Shown: positions 24,984 to 32,956, counted from the stretch's first letter. The stretch is DNA of 64,000 nt from Methanococcoides sp. AM1 (GCF_900774055.1 NZ_CAAGSW010000003.1:1-64000); one strand, 5' to 3'. The notes: a model not told the origin generated them from the sequence alone. A program made the numbers and translations.

Positions 24984-25724
24984 TCAGAGCGTTTGACATC
25001 CATCAACAGATATTACCTGACCACTTACATAATCCCCAAGCTCTGAGCTTAAAAACAAAACTACTTTTGCAACGTCTTCCGGGTTACCGCTTCGACCAAG
25101 AGCTATGTTTGAGATAAGTTTTTCGCGAATTTCTTCTTTAACATCTCTGGTCAGATCAGTTTCAATGAAGCCCGGTGCAATGGCATTCACAGTAATTCCA
25201 TATCTGCCAAGTTCTTTTGCTGCAGACTTTGTAAACCCGATAACCCCTGCTTTACTTGCTGAATATGCGGTTTGCCCGGCATTCCCATTTAACCCTATTA
25301 TGGATGAGATATTAATTATTTTTCCTGATCCTTGTTTTCTCATCATGTTTGAGGCGTATCGACTACATAGAAAAGTTCCTTTTAAATTGACATCAATAGT
25401 ATGATCAAACAACTCAGTGCTTGTCATCATCAACAAATTATTTTTTAGTATTCCAGCATTATTAACAAGTATATCAAGTTTTGAGTATCGCTTTTTAATA
25501 AAATCAAACATGTCTTTGACTTCATTTTCAACAGAAACATCTGCTTTTATCATTGTGGCTTGAAGTCCTTTTTCAGTAATGTTGTCTACAAGTTCAGCTG
25601 CTTTATCTTCACTTTCTTTGTAGTTTATAATCACATTTGCATGGTTCTCTGCTGCCAATAATGCCGTAGATCTTCCAATTCCGCGGCTCGCTCCTGTGAT
25701 CAGTATGACTTTACCTTCGAGCAT
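24984..25724 (-). CDS. SDR oxidoreductase, FabG-like (3-oxoacyl-ACP reductase)
   Basis: 246 residues. Rossmann motif ITGASRGIGRSTALLA, NNAG at about residue 90, catalytic Ser in INISSIIGLNG, and Tyr-x-x-x-Lys in AYSASKAGVIGFTKS. The C-terminus GQVISVDGCQTL is typical of FabG. FabG reduces 3-oxoacyl groups bound to acyl carrier protein. An archaeon normally lacks fatty acid synthase, but a carrier protein, its PPTase and an acyl-activating enzyme are encoded just upstream on the same strand, so a role on a carrier-bound intermediate is plausible (inference). It lies 71 bp after the NadE-like gene. Confidence 0.85.
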   Translation of the reverse strand: MLEGKVILITGASRGIGRSTALLAAENHANVIINYKESEDKAAELVDNITEKGLQATMIKADVSVENEVKDMFDFIKKRYSKLDILVNNAGILKNNLLMMTSTELFDHTIDVNLKGTFLCSRYASNMMRKQGSGKIINISSIIGLNGNAGQTAYSASKAGVIGFTKSAAKELGRYGITVNAIAPGFIETDLTRDVKEEIREKLISNIALGRSGNPEDVAKVVLFLSSELGDYVSGQVISVDGCQTL

Positions 25725-25795
25725 GCTGTATTCCTTTTTTTGAATAGCTCAAGTTTGAAATATAATAATCTGAATGTTTTTAGCTTGATCTTCGA

Positions 25796-26764
25796 TCATT
25801 TGTCAAGATAACATATAGGAGGCGGTGATGTGATGTATTTGGCTGTATTTCTTATTTTATCAATGCTTCTTCTTGCTTTGTTTATTGTTTCTTCTGATAG
25901 TTCTGTATTTTCTTTGATAATATCCATCGGTAGGTCATATTCCTGTGAATACAATAATTGGTCCAGAATATGAATTGGCATACGCCAGAAAAAATCTTCA
26001 TCCGATGTGAAGTTGCTCCATGTATCGGCGCTTGGAGGCCTTTCTATTATTTCTTTATCAATACCAAGTAGATCTGCTAATGCATATACTTGAGTTTTGT
26101 AACAGTCTGCCAGAGGTTCGATATCCACTCCACCGTCTCCATATTTCACGAACTGTCCCAGAAAATGTTCGGTCTTATTAGTGGTACCGCAGACAAGATA
26201 ATTGTTCTTTTCCGCGTATAAATACTGGATCAACATTCTTGATCTCTGTTTCACATTCTGGATTCCGATCAATTCGAGATAGTCCTTTGCTTTCAACTTG
26301 TTCTTTGCAATTACTTCATCATCTTTTACCAGTCTTATTGATGGGATGCATAACATGTTACTATCTAAGATGTTAGGTAGAACCAGTGAGGTCTTATGGA
26401 TATCCGGATCATATTCCGGGCAGGTTTTCTTTATTATCCGATCCTTTTTACCGTATATGTCAAGTGCTTGCAATATTGGGGTAATTGGAACTTCTTCATA
26501 GGAAACATCCAATGAGTCACAAAGTCTTGCTCCAAGTTCTTTGCTGGATGTAGCTGATTCTTCTTCAGGAAGTAGCAATCCGTAAACATTCTTATTGCCC
26601 AAAGTCTGAACAACTAGTGCGAGTATGACTGCAGAATCGATTCCTCCTGAAACTCCTACAACAACTCCCTTTTTCTTAAAATCCTTTACATTACTTTCAA
26701 TAAATGCCTGGATATGAGAGGCGTTCTTTTCTGTATCTTTATTAAGTTCATCAATTATTTTCAT
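25796..26764 (-). CDS. NadE-like NAD synthase / amide-forming PP-loop enzyme
   Basis: 322 residues from ATG 26764 (GGGG seven bases upstream). The PP-loop is VVVGVSGGIDSAVILALV; the other NadE landmarks LVCGTTNKTEHFLGQFVKYGD and DIEPLADCYKTQVYALA are intact. It is longer than typical archaeal NadE because of an insert around residues 100-145 (IIKKTCPEYDPDIHKTSL...). The insert and the position inside a carrier-protein cluster suggest either a second NadE or a relative that makes an amide on a pathway intermediate. No glutaminase domain, so ammonia is the direct nitrogen source. It follows the PP-loop gene at 26842 by 77 bp. Confidence 0.8.
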   Translation of the reverse strand: MKIIDELNKDTEKNASHIQAFIESNVKDFKKKGVVVGVSGGIDSAVILALVVQTLGNKNVYGLLLPEEESATSSKELGARLCDSLDVSYEEVPITPILQALDIYGKKDRIIKKTCPEYDPDIHKTSLVLPNILDSNMLCIPSIRLVKDDEVIAKNKLKAKDYLELIGIQNVKQRSRMLIQYLYAEKNNYLVCGTTNKTEHFLGQFVKYGDGGVDIEPLADCYKTQVYALADLLGIDKEIIERPPSADTWSNFTSDEDFFWRMPIHILDQLLYSQEYDLPMDIIKENTELSEETINKARRSIDKIRNTAKYITSPPPICYLDK

Positions 26765-26841
26765 AATATTCCCCACTGGAATAATTTGATTTTGCACTGT
26801 GTTTAGTTTAGAATATTGTTACATCTCATCGGTATGGCAGT

Positions 26842-27855
26842 TTACTCTAGTTCCATTTCAAGTTTCTTTGCAGCCATTTCTATCAATGGCTCTGACAGTT
26901 CTTTATGCAATTTTTCCAATCCTTCTTCCCGGGTCATATCTCCGCTTCTCACAAGCCCTGCTATGTCGAAAGCATATGGGTGGATGTCATATTTATTGAT
27001 ATGATTCTGACAGGCAAATGCATTCAAAAGACAGTTTGTTGAATTGCTGTCATTGATCTTTGGAGGCATCCATCCGAGGTCTATCAGAGTCTCAATTATC
27101 TTATCTTCATTGTAATCCCACAGGCACATTGGGTGTAATATAACTGGTGTGGTGCCTTTATCTATACTCTTTATGATATCATTTTTTAAAGTGAAACTCT
27201 CATCCTTATCCTCTACACCGATATTTTGCAGTTGCTTCTCAAAAAGATCCCGGGACCACTTTATGAAACTGGGTTTAAGATCGATTATTGGATTAGGGGC
27301 CTGGCCCGATGTGAAAGCAAAAACAATGAATGGTGCTTTATGAATAATTGCCTGTTCTATCAGTTTCTGTTTGATGATACTAATGCATGTGTTACAGATA
27401 TCACTGGCTCGATATCTAGCAAATTTTGAGTATGCATTGGTAGATCCAGCTGCTTTTCGAAATGTATCACAGAGTTTCTTTTCTTCCATACCCAGCTTGA
27501 AATAGTCGCATTCCACGATCTCACACATCTTTTTTGCATTATCAATAGCAGTGTCTGAAATGAATGCATTATCAAATTGAACTGCAAGGATGTTCAGGAA
27601 TGGGTACTCCTTTTTAAGTTTATAGAGTCCATATGAGGAGTCCTTTCCACCGGAAAGTGCAAAAATGACATCATATTCTCCTGTTCCACTGTTCTCTTTA
27701 AGCATCTTTTCTATAATTCCCAAATAATTCTTCTTTTCTTCCGAAGACATGGGTGTATAGCTCTCGCAGAACTGGCAAAGGCCACTTTCTTCGTTTATTG
27801 TTATACCAGGAATGTCTGAATCTAAAATACATTTCTTACATATTAGCTTTGACAT
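26842..27855 (-). CDS. N-acetyl sugar amidotransferase-like PP-loop protein
   Basis: 337 residues. The N-terminus has a cysteine pair arrangement CKKCILDSDIPGI...GLCQFC typical of WbpG/PseA-type amidotransferases. The PP-loop is IFALSGGKDSSYGLYKLK (about residues 62-79), and CNTC lies further on. Known: WbpG-type enzymes convert an acetamido group on a sugar to an acetamidino group, usually with a separate glutaminase; none is encoded nearby. The gene overlaps the upstream adenylate-forming ligase by 20 bp and is therefore part of the same operon. Substrate unknown; it could modify a sugar or a carrier-bound acid. Confidence 0.75.
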   Translation of the reverse strand: MSKLICKKCILDSDIPGITINEESGLCQFCESYTPMSSEEKKNYLGIIEKMLKENSGTGEYDVIFALSGGKDSSYGLYKLKKEYPFLNILAVQFDNAFISDTAIDNAKKMCEIVECDYFKLGMEEKKLCDTFRKAAGSTNAYSKFARYRASDICNTCISIIKQKLIEQAIIHKAPFIVFAFTSGQAPNPIIDLKPSFIKWSRDLFEKQLQNIGVEDKDESFTLKNDIIKSIDKGTTPVILHPMCLWDYNEDKIIETLIDLGWMPPKINDSNSTNCLLNAFACQNHINKYDIHPYAFDIAGLVRSGDMTREEGLEKLHKELSEPLIEMAAKKLEMELE

Positions 27856-29314
27856 TTTGATACTCCTCTATTATAGACCTGTTAGATATTTTTCCACTTT
27901 TACTCAGTGGCAAGTTTTCGATAAGAATTATTTCCAGTGGACACAGGAAGCCTGGCAAATTCTTTCTGCAAAATGTATACAATGTTTCAACTTCTGTATC
28001 CTGAGTTGGAATTACCATCAGGCTGATGGCATTTCCCATATACTCATGATCAACCGGGACGACGAATACATCTGAAACTTCATTATTTTGGCCAATATAT
28101 TTTTCCAGTTCTCTTGGATTTATACGATGATCAGCAACTTTGATCAGGTCATCTTTGCGACCTAATAATTTAAAATAACCATTTGGCAACTTTTGTGCCA
28201 GGTCGCCGGTATACATCCAACCATCGATGACCTTTTTACGGCTAGCTTCCTCATCATTAAGATAGCCTATCAGTATGTTCTTTCCTCTGGCTATCAATTC
28301 ACCTGTTATGCCAGGTCCAACTGGCTTTTTACTATCATCAACCACATCAAGTTCAACTCCCGGGATTGGTCTGCCGATTGTATCAGGATACTTTTCCAGA
28401 TCTGCTGGTGGAAGATACGCAAGCCTTGCGGTTGCTTCTGTTTGGCCATACATTGGTATGATTTCTATACTGCCATTCAACTGCTTTATCTTTTCGATAA
28501 TTTCTACTTCCATGGCACCGCCTGCAGATGCAGCAAGTCTGACGTTCTTGAATGATTTCTGGAAGCGGGATGGGTATTTGAGAAGGATTCGATAAGTGCT
28601 TGGGACTCCATAGAATATTGTTACTCCAGATCCCACAAGTTTAAAGGTTGATTCGAGGAAAGTAAGGCCACCGATCTTTATAGATCCTCCTGCAACCAAT
28701 TGGGAATTAATTATTGAATTTCCAAAAGCATGGTGTGGAGATATCACTTGTGCAGCGTTGTCTTCTGGTGTTATGCTCAGTACCTCTATTATGGAATTTG
28801 CATTTGCTATTAGATTTTCATCACTTAGCATAACACCTTTTGGAGCACCTGTAGTTCCGGATGTATACATTACAAGCCTTAATTGATCATTATTGTTCTC
28901 ACTAATGATCTTTTTATGTAAAGTTTTCACAGTGGAATCCTTTGAAATATAGATTATAGTGGTAAATCCTTCAAAGAAGGCATTTTCAAATCTCGAATAT
29001 TGCTGTTCAGTGACAATGATATTGCTTATCTGGTTGCTATCTAATATTTGTCTAATATTGGATTCTGTCAGTTCCACCGGTAGGGGTACAGCAATGTTAT
29101 CCGATCGATAGACTGCCATTAGGGCCCGAATATACTCTATACCTGATTCTGCAAGGATTGCCAATTTGCAATGTTCGAAATCATCGATTTCTGCTGCTAT
29201 GGTGTTTATAGCTTCATCGAGATGACTATAAGAAATTGATCTGTCTTTCTCTTCAAGAGCAGTTTTTTGAGGATTTTCTTTGGCATGGTTTGCAATATAT
29301 TCGTCGATTCTCAT
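27836..29314 (-). CDS. AMP-dependent acyl/aminoacyl ligase
   Basis: 492 residues. It activates a carboxylic acid with ATP and passes it to a thiol. Core motifs: LVMYTSGTTGAPKGVML (A3), PMYGQTEATARLAYLP (A5), MYTGDLAQKLPNGYFKLLGR (A7-A8), DLIKVADHRINPRELEKYI and PLSKSGKISNRSI (A10) with the catalytic Lys. The carrier-protein gene ends 4 bp upstream, so the thiol acceptor is probably that carrier rather than CoA. The acid cannot be named from sequence alone. It overlaps the amidotransferase-like gene downstream. Confidence 0.9.
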   Translation of the reverse strand: MRIDEYIANHAKENPQKTALEEKDRSISYSHLDEAINTIAAEIDDFEHCKLAILAESGIEYIRALMAVYRSDNIAVPLPVELTESNIRQILDSNQISNIIVTEQQYSRFENAFFEGFTTIIYISKDSTVKTLHKKIISENNNDQLRLVMYTSGTTGAPKGVMLSDENLIANANSIIEVLSITPEDNAAQVISPHHAFGNSIINSQLVAGGSIKIGGLTFLESTFKLVGSGVTIFYGVPSTYRILLKYPSRFQKSFKNVRLAASAGGAMEVEIIEKIKQLNGSIEIIPMYGQTEATARLAYLPPADLEKYPDTIGRPIPGVELDVVDDSKKPVGPGITGELIARGKNILIGYLNDEEASRKKVIDGWMYTGDLAQKLPNGYFKLLGRKDDLIKVADHRINPRELEKYIGQNNEVSDVFVVPVDHEYMGNAISLMVIPTQDTEVETLYTFCRKNLPGFLCPLEIILIENLPLSKSGKISNRSIIEEYQNVKANM

Positions 29315-29318
29315 GATC

Positions 29319-29564
29319 TCACTTTGTCAATTTTTGGATGGTATCTACTATTCCGCGGATTGAATCAAAATTTTCAGGAGTTAATAGGTCTTCAGGAATT
29401 TCTATGGAATATTTTTCAGAAATGAAATCTATAAATTCGATTAATCCAATTGAATCGATAATTCCTTTCATTGTTAAAGAATCATCATCATTTAATTGTG
29501 TACTACTGTCCATAAACGATCTTTCTTGCAAATATGCCATTATATTTTCTTTAATTTCATCCAT
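29319..29564 (-). CDS. Acyl carrier protein
   Basis: 81 residues from ATG 29564; a TTG six codons upstream is the other start. The family motif GIIDSIGLIEFIDFI contains the Ser (about residue 38) that carries 4'-phosphopantetheine. The acidic four-helix pattern (EIKENIMAYL..., EIPEDLLTPENFDSI, IRGIVDTIQKL) is complete. ACPs are rare in archaea, which make lipids without them. With a PPTase upstream and a ligase 4 bp downstream, it is the tether of the pathway encoded here. It is too small and isolated to be a domain of a larger synthase. Confidence 0.92.
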   Translation of the reverse strand: MDEIKENIMAYLQERSFMDSSTQLNDDDSLTMKGIIDSIGLIEFIDFISEKYSIEIPEDLLTPENFDSIRGIVDTIQKLTK

Positions 29565-29762
29565 GTTTGTCAGCCCACTCAACGTATTTATTACTTAAAG
29601 AGCATAATAATGCAATCTTGATTCAACAAAGTCACGTAATACAAGCATAAGGAATACTCTATGCTTCATAGCTGCTTGAATTAATTCCCCATAAGCAAAA
29701 TAACTTCAATCGTATATAAGATGTTCTTATGGCAAACAAATTCTTCTCTCTGCCAAATTGAT

Positions 29763-29846
29763 CTATGATATTCCAATTACGTCCTTATTCATTAAATCTA
29801 TATATTTGGCATCGACGGCTTCTATTATTTCAGAAGTGTTGTTCAT
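29763..29846 (-). CDS. 27-residue reading frame coupled to the PPTase stop
   Basis: The ATG directly follows the TAA of the PPTase (TAAATG). The product is 27 residues, acidic and helical (starts MNNTSEIIEAVDAKYIDL). The remaining 200 bp before the carrier-protein start show only short open pieces in other frames. It may be a real short peptide, the start of a decayed gene, or chance. No family is recognised. Confidence 0.3.
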   Translation of the reverse strand: MNNTSEIIEAVDAKYIDLMNKDVIGIS

Positions 29847-30530
29847 TTAAATGGAAATACCTTTTTGGAGATAGCAAATATTGATCCTATCATTTATCGA
29901 GGCAAAAGCAACAGATAGTACATATCGGTTATCTATAACGCATTCTTGGTGATCGATATCATTGAGATCAATTTCTTTATTCAAACATGCTAACATACTC
30001 TGATCGGTCAGTTTACAATATGCTTCTCGCAATGTCCAATTTTTTAGTTTATTAACATTGTCTTTTTGAAGCAGATCTCTTTTCGATCCTGTATCAAGCA
30101 AACCTTTCGAAATATTCCCGAAATGTATTGGTCTGATATATTCAATATCAATTCCTGTTTTCAGTTTTGATATTGATACAGCAGCAAGATCTCCGGTGTA
30201 CGAGATGCAGATATAAATATCCTCATGTTTGTGTACGCACACACGTCCGGCATTATTTCGATAGAGGGATATATCTAACAATGATTCTTTTTTAAGAATA
30301 TGCTGCAGAATAAATTTCAGGAATGACCGAGATCCGATGAACCTTTTTCTAAAATAATTCGTTTTTAGTGTGTTTAGGTATTCTTTTTCATCGTTGCTTA
30401 GATCTGATAGGTCGAATTGTTCATCAATTTTCAGATCAATCAAAAAAATAAGGGCATCGTTCTTATTCCATAATTTACAGACTGACAAAGAAGATAGAGA
30501 AGTTAACGATCCTACTGTTTCAATAACCAT
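29847..30530 (-). CDS. 4'-phosphopantetheinyl transferase, Sfp type
   Basis: 227 residues. It moves phosphopantetheine from CoA to the Ser of a carrier protein. Two diagnostic motifs are present: GIDIE (residues 126-130, magnesium ligands) and WTLREAYCK (165-173; the family has W-[ST]-x-[KR]-E-[AS]-x-x-K). CISYTGDLAAVSISK fits the conserved HSG..A.V.. region, with Tyr-Thr-Gly in place of His-Ser-x. The length and layout fit the Sfp/Gsp class. It is the first gene of the carrier cluster, 264 bp before the ACP. Confidence 0.87.
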   Translation of the reverse strand: MVIETVGSLTSLSSLSVCKLWNKNDALIFLIDLKIDEQFDLSDLSNDEKEYLNTLKTNYFRKRFIGSRSFLKFILQHILKKESLLDISLYRNNAGRVCVHKHEDIYICISYTGDLAAVSISKLKTGIDIEYIRPIHFGNISKGLLDTGSKRDLLQKDNVNKLKNWTLREAYCKLTDQSMLACLNKEIDLNDIDHQECVIDNRYVLSVAFASINDRINICYLQKGISI

Positions 30531-31099: not shown

Positions 31100-31756
31100 A
31101 TGTCTAGCATAAAAAAGATCTTGATGGTAGTAACTTTAATCACATTGCTGGTAGGTCTAACTAATGTTTCTGCAGCTGCTTCAGATGTAACTCTAAAGCC
31201 ATCATCACAGACCATTGCACCGGGTGAATCTTTCACAGTCGATGTTTTTGTCTCTCCTGATGTTGATATTGCAGGAATCCAGTTCGATCTGCTTTTTGAT
31301 AGTTCTCAGTTCCAAGTATCAGATGTGAGTGAAGGAAGCTTGTTCAAGCAAAGTGGTATGAACACATTTTTTGTTTCAGGTTCTGCAAATTCAGGTTTAA
31401 TAAATGATGCATATGGTTGCATTCTCGGTGCTTCAGATGTGACAACACCAGCAACTTTTGCTATCATCACGTTAACAGCAACTGAACAGGCAAAAGGAAG
31501 ATCAGAATTAGTCCTGAAAGATGTTATTATAAGTGATCCAGAAGGTAATTCTGTAGATCTCGAATTAACAAATACAGTGATCTCAGTACTGGTATTTGAT
31601 ATAAACCAGGATCATGTAGTTGATTTTAATGATTATGGTCTAGTTGAACAGCATTTCGATGAAACCACCTCATATCCTTATCCTCTATGGGATGTTAATC
31701 AGGATAATATTGTAAATGTCCTTGATATGATGCTGGTGCTATCGCATATGGACTGA
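31100..31756 (+). CDS. Secreted cohesin-dockerin protein
   Basis: 218 residues. Signal peptide at 1-27. A cohesin domain follows (SDVTLKPSSQTIAPGESFTV, then IAGIQFDLLFDSSQF and a terminal VVISDPEGN-like strand). The C-terminus is a type I dockerin with two calcium-binding repeats: DINQDHVVDFNDYGLVEQHF and DVNQDNIVNVLDMMLVLSHM. Cohesin and dockerin bind each other, so such a protein can polymerise or link to other cohesins. The next gene encodes a second cohesin 18 bp downstream, so the two form an operon and probably a surface complex (inference). Confidence 0.85.
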   Translation: MSSIKKILMVVTLITLLVGLTNVSAAASDVTLKPSSQTIAPGESFTVDVFVSPDVDIAGIQFDLLFDSSQFQVSDVSEGSLFKQSGMNTFFVSGSANSGLINDAYGCILGASDVTTPATFAIITLTATEQAKGRSELVLKDVIISDPEGNSVDLELTNTVISVLVFDINQDHVVDFNDYGLVEQHFDETTSYPYPLWDVNQDNIVNVLDMMLVLSHMD

Positions 31757-31774
31757 TAATGGTAAGGTGTACCG

Positions 31775-32956
31775 ATGGAAAAGTATATTTTCATCTCTGG
31801 TAAAAGTAAATTTTATTCCTTACTATTTTTTTCTTTGTTTGCTATTACCTGCCTTAGTGGAATTGCCAGTGCCAGTACGACCATCAGCATCATGCCCGCT
31901 TCTCAATCAGTGGAGGAAGGGCAGAACTTTGTTGTGAGTGTCTATTTGGATCCGGACCATCCGGTTGCTGGTGTCCAGTTCGACTTGTCTTATGACAGTG
32001 AACTTGTCAGGGTTGTTCAGGTCTCAGAAGGTGAATTATTAAGACAGGAAGGTGCTCTTGTCTGGTTCAATCCCGGTGAGATCAAAAGTTCAAATGGAGA
32101 AATTAATTCTGTATATGGGTTGATACTAGACAAGACAAGTGTTACAGGTCCGGAATCTTTTGCTATGGTCCAGATGACCGCTGGTAATACATCAGGCACA
32201 AGTTCCCTGTCCTTATCAAACGTTGTGGTCAGTGATACTCAGGGTCAGATCATTCCTACAGATATTGTTGATGGATCTATCACTATTGGCTTTGATTCAT
32301 CTTCTAAATCTACGACCAGTAACACGAATGATTCTGAAACTGGTGAAATTAGCATCACAAGCAGATCCTATGAGGAATTGAAGATCATAGAAAGATCTAT
32401 CCAGCCTGTGTATCTTGGATCTCAGGTTTCCTATCAGTTCGATAAGCCTGATAATCCCATTATGTACATCAATTACGAATCTCTCGCAAATGCCGGTAAT
32501 GTTGTAGCAACAATTGAGATCCTTAAGCAGACGTCCCTTCTCGTTTCATCGCCTCCTCCCGGTATTGTCTACAAAGATGTGAATATCTGGTTGGGTAAAC
32601 CCGGTTATAGTGCTGAGGGTAATATAAAGGATGCAGTAATCGGATTCAGTGTAGAAAGACCCTGGCTTGAGGAGAATCAGGTATCTGATAGTTCAATATT
32701 GATGTATCGTTATGAACAGGACAAGTGGCTACCCCTTTCAACAAAGAAGATCAATGAGAGCAACAGCCACGTGTTTTTTGAAGCAGAAACGTCTGTTTTT
32801 TCGCCTTTTGTAATTGTGGCTTCCAGTTCAACAGAGGATATTGTTAGGAATACAGAAGTCGATAATACTCCTGAAGAAAATGAAAGTCTTGATCAGAACG
32901 CGGCTTTTATTCTGAGTATGTCGATATTGATACTTCTATTTGCCAGAAGGCATTAA
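31775..32956 (+). CDS. Secreted cohesin and PGF-pre-PGF domain protein
   Basis: 393 residues. Signal peptide at 1-32, then a cohesin domain (ISIMPASQSVEEGQNFVVSV, VAGVQFDLSYDSELV). A Ser/Thr/Asn linker leads to a second domain (about residues 205-350: PIMYINYES..., FSVERPWLEENQVSDSSI, YRYEQDKWLPL, SPFVIVAS) that matches the PGF-pre-PGF domain of methanogen surface proteins. The C-terminus is a hydrophobic helix ending in FARRH, like an archaeosortase tail but without the PGF motif. It is likely to be cell-anchored and to receive the dockerin of its neighbour. Confidence 0.8.
   Translation: MEKYIFISGKSKFYSLLFFSLFAITCLSGIASASTTISIMPASQSVEEGQNFVVSVYLDPDHPVAGVQFDLSYDSELVRVVQVSEGELLRQEGALVWFNPGEIKSSNGEINSVYGLILDKTSVTGPESFAMVQMTAGNTSGTSSLSLSNVVVSDTQGQIIPTDIVDGSITIGFDSSSKSTTSNTNDSETGEISITSRSYEELKIIERSIQPVYLGSQVSYQFDKPDNPIMYINYESLANAGNVVATIEILKQTSLLVSSPPPGIVYKDVNIWLGKPGYSAEGNIKDAVIGFSVERPWLEENQVSDSSILMYRYEQDKWLPLSTKKINESNSHVFFEAETSVFSPFVIVASSSTEDIVRNTEVDNTPEENESLDQNAAFILSMSILILLFARRH

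Follow-up and report, generated by a model that had tools for sequence, protein, structure and literature searches.

A run of six co-directional genes in the methanogen Methanococcoides sp. AM1 encodes a carrier-protein module whose gene order is kept across the Methanosarcinaceae. The genes occupy positions 24984-30530 on the minus strand of the 64,000-nucleotide stretch of DNA that we analysed (the window), which belongs to a 2.48-Mb genome with Methanococcoides as its closest relatives. In order, they encode a 4'-phosphopantetheinyl transferase (PPTase), an acyl carrier protein (ACP), an adenylate-forming ligase, a PP-loop protein, a NadE paralogue and a FabG-like SDR. The observations below on gene content, on the conservation of gene order, on co-occurrence and selection, and on motifs and sugar-pathway neighbours are computational. 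We tentatively hypothesize that the module is an ACP-dependent pathway, which would attach an amidated or amidinated acyl group to a sugar of the envelope; we consider this quite possible, though short of probable.

A first-pass annotation had described six genes on one strand in this interval, with a 4-bp gap, a 20-bp overlap and the motifs GIDIE, WTLREAYCK and DSIGL, and all of these features were found as described. The ligase gene starts 4 bp past the ACP stop codon and shares a 20-bp coding overlap (27836-27855) with the PP-loop gene, which recurs exactly in most loci across the family. In our synteny sample of 31 archaeal loci (30 extracted loci and the window), the order PPTase, ACP, ligase, PP-loop, NadE was held wherever the parts were present, and it is likewise kept in named species. 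The operon genes are under purifying selection, with Ka/Ks of about 0.1 for most of them and about 0.3 for the PPTase. Because the order and the exact overlap recur and Ka/Ks is low, the arrangement is more than chance. Two divergent neighbours (31100-32956, plus strand) encode secreted cohesin-domain proteins, the first with an additional dockerin domain and the second with a PGF-pre-PGF domain, which is characteristic of surface proteins in archaea; this pair is kept beside the operon in five relatives. A defence-system library gave no match to the operon, and a sigma-70 promoter scan was uninformative for an archaeal host.

The PPTase (29847-30530, 227 residues) carries the motifs of the Sfp type, and residues G126, D128, E130, W165, E169 and K173 are invariant among 14 homologues; its score against PF01648 is borderline, slightly below the cut-off (23.3 bits, cut-off 25). 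The listed ORF of the ACP begins at a TTG (29582), but relatives favour the conserved ATG at 29564, which gives a protein of 81 residues (29319-29564). Its attachment residue, Ser38 (codon 29453-29451), lies in the DSIGL motif, and the serine of DSI is invariant among 14 homologues. The match to PF00550 is borderline (20.6 bits, cut-off 20.8), that to NF058660 (AmcB-type ACP; E 2.6e-11) is below the model's cut-off, and among ACP families the one from cispentacin synthesis comes closest.

The PPTase genes of five Methanococcoides relatives (L031, L059, L060, L034 and L035, in genomes G095, G099, G093, G090 and G097) each contain one in-frame TAG. Two different sites are affected, codon 76 in three relatives and a position near the C-terminus in two. 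Homology runs on past the TAG, and at the codon-76 site selection is similar on either side, which suggests that the codon may be read through as pyrrolysine.

The ligase (27836-29314, 492 residues) belongs to the ANL superfamily, with both domains (PF00501, 203.9 bits, cut-off 29.9; PF13193, 39.4 bits), a TSGTTG.PKG loop, a GRKDD hinge and a C-terminal lysine; the adenylation motifs and Lys475 are invariant. The position aligned to Asp235 (GrsA numbering), which binds the amino group in NRPS alpha-amino-acid adenylation domains, is not an aspartate, in a part of the profile alignment with LgrA that is uncertain, and the AlphaFold2 model (mean pLDDT 54) is too poor for a reading of the pocket. 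From its position and motifs, the enzyme is predicted to load the neighbouring ACP.

The PP-loop protein (26842-27855, 337 residues) matches no Pfam family above cut-off. Its SGGKDSS P-loop and six cysteines (C6, C9, C27, C30, C154 and C157) are invariant, and its AlphaFold2 model (pLDDT 90) is best matched in the PDB by the Legionella N-acetyl sugar amidotransferase 8wex, with a Z score of 22.4 over 310 residues, the next entry scoring 12.9. It shares fold and P-loop with the N-acetyl-sugar amidotransferases WbuX, WbpG and PseA, which include the methanogen protein MMP1081, and is a predicted amidotransferase. In contrast to these enzymes, it is linked to an ACP and a ligase and not to ammonia suppliers of the HisH/HisF type, and its full-length match to their family model TIGR03573 (94.1 bits) lies below the cut-off of 203.2. 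The nitrile synthetase ArtA (PDB 9lei/9leh) is also among the fold matches, tied with other PP-loop enzymes at Z 11.7, and nitrile formation may be considered on the basis of the model. WbuX-like PP-loop domains also occur within NRPS genes on plasmids of Roseovarius and Streptomyces (L131:12001-12933 and L132:12001-12915).

The NadE paralogue (25796-26797, with a likely start at ATG 26764) belongs to subfamily NF002048 (430.6 bits, cut-off 313) and is predicted to carry out an ammonia-dependent amidation. NCBI names proteins of this subfamily NAD(+) synthase, as would be expected if the gene served ordinary NAD synthesis and the operon were a loose collection of unrelated genes. However, the genome has a separate housekeeping NadE (G000:C2:28308), and each of the 11 genomes of the genus, including those without the operon, encodes a full housekeeping NadE, which leads us to reject ordinary NAD synthesis as the role of the operon enzyme. 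The gene set also clusters in differing orders in Methanoregula and rhizobia, and we find a loose collection hardly credible. The operon enzyme is a dedicated paralogue. It contains some 50 inserted residues, which the housekeeping NadE lacks and which are common to NadE proteins of a rhizobial and Azospirillum gene cluster. A search of viral contigs found no relatives of it.

The last gene (24984-25724) encodes a 246-residue SDR with a strong match to PF13561 (adh_short_C2; 224.6 bits, cut-off 27). It falls short of the FabG model TIGR01830 (288.1 bits, cut-off 297.75) and passes the broader subfamily NF009466. The SDR follows next in order in Methanococcoides, Methanolobus, Methanomethylovorans and others, but most Methanosarcina copies lack it, as do clusters of the Methanoregula type. 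The best reading is therefore that the SDR is accessory and that the core consists of PPTase, ACP, ligase and the two PP-loop ATPases, and the first-pass proposal of reduction as a core step is not supported. In most Methanosarcina, a DUF362-ferredoxin protein and a hexapeptide acyltransferase take the place of the SDR. We rejected the DUF362 protein as a core member, as most genomes have a paralogue of the family whether the operon is present or absent. The DUF362 gene beside the first operon copy in G148, which we take to be M. acetivorans, is a pseudogene with eight stops (G148:C1:4592883-4593776).

Among 186 genomes of the order, a search with the PP-loop protein gave about 50 strong matches, and an ACP profile matched 49 genomes, every one of which also has the PPTase and the PP-loop gene. 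The same profile found nothing in relatives without the operon within these 186 genomes. For example, ACP, PPTase and PP-loop gene are all lacking from the Methanococcoides relative G091, presumably M. burtonii. The first-pass proposal of a free-standing carrier-protein pathway is supported, in a lineage otherwise without an ACP match, as is a dedicated PPTase. The underlying premise that archaea mostly lack ACP is supported by the literature, in which the protein is present in only a few archaea (PMC3533463). The proposal of a conserved neighbourhood was likewise borne out, since our archaeal search for the gene order found it kept across the family and not as scattered homologues.

The idea of a complete cluster of six genes is not supported in that form: five genes make up the core, and the PPTase gene can be located apart from the others, as in Methanomethylovorans. 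In two Methanococcoides genomes (G096 and G098), only a decayed fragment is left of the local PPTase gene and another copy lies beside UDP-sugar dehydrogenase genes, which suggests that the module needs a PPTase. The core is also found without the SDR, in altered order and on both strands, on two contigs labelled Methanoregula (L118 and L120) and on one labelled Thermoplasmata that is possibly misbinned (L119), with 50-54% identity for the PP-loop and NadE proteins. All five core genes are present in L120; the ORF search picked up no PPTase in L118 and no ACP in L119. That the genes stay clustered although their order has changed argues well for a functional link.

Some Methanosarcina have extra operon copies (L037, L047, L048, L050 and L058), located just downstream of indolepyruvate oxidoreductase genes (IorA/IorB) or their remnants. 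Some Methanosarcina copies are broken. Genome G177 carries the operon three times, and its PP-loop genes are nearly identical. A single copy was found in M. mazei and two in the presumed M. acetivorans. The position of the second copies would fit a module of aromatic acid metabolism, in which the ligase uses arylacetates or like acids produced by the oxidoreductase. The primary copies, including that of the window, have no such neighbour, and we regard this explanation as highly improbable.

In several relatives the operon adjoins genes for nucleotide-sugar metabolism. In the M. alaskense-type genomes G090 and G097, genes for a UDP-GlcNAc 3-dehydrogenase and a nucleotide-sugar dehydrogenase immediately precede the operon on its own strand, the gaps being 53 and 50 bp. 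The 3-dehydrogenase at the homologous G098 locus scores 520 bits against NF040723, over the curated cut-off. The same pair accompanies the PPTase and an acyltransferase in G098, and the PPTase alone in G096. In Methanolobus, WecB/WecC-like genes and a hexapeptide acyltransferase are divergent from the operon, and a member of the linked acyltransferase family lies inside a glycosyltransferase cluster in G098. These sugar-nucleotide and acyltransferase neighbours back the earlier suggestion of a surface glycan. A thiolase, a 3-hydroxyacyl-CoA dehydrogenase and a hexapeptide acyltransferase are also encoded in a row inside a glycosyltransferase cluster of G098 (L161:3926-6694), an arrangement that looks suited to producing a further acyl decoration.

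The sugar-gene link is present only in some lineages. At the window, no glycosyltransferase or sugar-nucleotide gene is adjacent to the operon, and no protein closely related to the linked acyltransferase is encoded in the genome; the presumed M. burtonii retains the sugar genes without the module. Together with the Methanosarcina copies beside IorA/IorB, these observations keep our glycan reading tentative.

The acyltransferases leave room for a different acceptor, in that the acyl-ACP could serve to modify a protein side chain or the head group of a polar lipid instead of a sugar. Hexapeptide acyltransferases act on lipids too; the linked one weakly matches heptaprenylglyceryl phosphate O-acetyltransferase (62.5 bits, against a cut-off of 300), and in Methanosarcina a gene for undecaprenyl diphosphate synthase often lies next to the operon in divergent orientation. 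Sugars are indicated, however, by the fold of the PP-loop protein and by the adjacent UDP-sugar genes, which make such an acceptor improbable.

Known sugar pathways resemble the envelope-sugar route in part. Beside the module in some relatives are counterparts of the Wbp-type UDP-diamino-uronic acid pathway of archaellin and A-LPS linking sugars, namely a 3-dehydrogenase, a 6-dehydrogenase, a hexapeptide acyltransferase and a WbpG-like enzyme. In its known form, that pathway draws on acetyl-CoA and works without ACP or ligase. Among methanogens, M. maripaludis is reported to have uronic sugars with acetamidino and threonyl-amide groups, in which a WbpG homologue is implicated (PMC2952790), and Porphyromonas has a seryl-glucuronamide linking sugar (PMC7468200). 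Exosortase A-associated exopolysaccharide genes likewise combine an ACP with an adenylate-forming ligase (TIGR03098) and an amidotransferase (TIGR03108), and related bacterial loci also have acyltransferases and a nucleotide-sugar dehydrogenase. Our operon differs in that its ligase is not a member of TIGR03098 (231.1 bits, cut-off 592) and in having no exosortase, PLP decarboxylase or polysaccharide genes. Bacterial relatives of the ligase-ACP pair are located in polysaccharide and exosortase-type loci, and such pairs are found outside glycan loci too.

We read the module as acting on an envelope sugar because of the PP-loop fold match, the sugar-nucleotide and acyltransferase neighbours, the bacterial polysaccharide loci and the precedent of methanogen uronic sugars. 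All catalytic steps, substrates and products in the following scheme are predicted. The PPTase would modify Ser38 of the ACP with phosphopantetheine taken from CoA. The ligase would adenylate a carboxylic acid, probably one other than an alpha-amino acid, and load it on the carrier; as types of chemistry, both of these steps are very likely. The two PP-loop ATPases would then bring in nitrogen. In both enzyme families, ATP activates a carbonyl oxygen, which nitrogen replaces. The NadE-like enzyme could convert a carboxylate and ammonia to a carboxamide, and the WbuX-like enzyme could convert an amide to an amidine or form a further amide. Their target might be the carrier-bound acyl group, so that they would amidate ACP cargo, or the acylated sugar. 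Where present, the SDR would reduce an oxo group. In many relatives, the hexapeptide-repeat acyltransferase would complete the route by acylating a nucleotide sugar at an amino or hydroxyl position; a sugar of the UDP-diamino-uronic acid type is a plausible acceptor.

The same enzymes could instead build a free small molecule on the carrier, such as a secondary metabolite, signal, osmolyte or cofactor, with the nearby sugar genes being coincidental. The cispentacin-type ACP model and the WbuX-like domains within NRPS genes on bacterial plasmids are consistent with such a product, as is the lack of an adjacent sugar-nucleotide gene at the window and at most Methanosarcina operons. Yet the condensation domain PF00668 has no match in the whole genome, so the module does not fall in the NRPS class, and the operon contains no thioesterase. 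Neither does it belong to the FAS II or PKS systems, as there is no ketosynthase in the operon and one weak ketoacyl-synthase-family match elsewhere in the genome; the first-pass annotation had noted the absence of all three from the operon. Since sugar-nucleotide dehydrogenases and hexapeptide acyltransferases recur by the operon in several genera, we consider a free small molecule unlikely, without being far-fetched.

A comparable gene set exists in nitrogen-fixing bacteria. Genes for AsnB, an ACP, a class I adenylate-forming ligase and NadE adjoin in S. meliloti pSymB, Rhizobium ACO-34A, Mesorhizobium, Shinella and Azospirillum plasmids. As in our operon, ACP, ligase and an NF002048 NadE with the same insertion are adjacent, whereas an AsnB-type amidotransferase stands in for the WbuX-type PP-loop protein, and a local PPTase and an SDR are absent. 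Bacteria have their own PPTase and do not require a local copy. Therefore, the combination of ACP, ligase, NadE and a further PP-loop amidotransferase recurs in two domains. We speculate that there may be a cross-domain class of modules in which a free-standing ACP and its ligase, together with two PP-loop ATPases, build an amide, amidine or similar nitrogen group on the carrier. The methanogen members of this class would bring their own PPTase, and their ACP would serve a purpose other than the synthesis of fatty acids, polyketides or peptides. The proposal, taken as a whole, is possible but on the doubtful side.

Bacterial modules of ACP and ligase for cell-surface products are already known. 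A partial check of the open-licence literature found no description of the present gene set, as an archaeal ACP operon or as the rhizobial cluster, and no functional study of the latter. The envelope-sugar module would explain why these methanogens retain a PPTase, and would likely reveal an unusual surface sugar. It would also help to give a function to the uncharacterised rhizobial cluster with the same core of ACP, ligase and NadE. As a conserved, dedicated ACP pathway in the genetically tractable Methanosarcina, it offers a clear test of the carrier's role in archaea.
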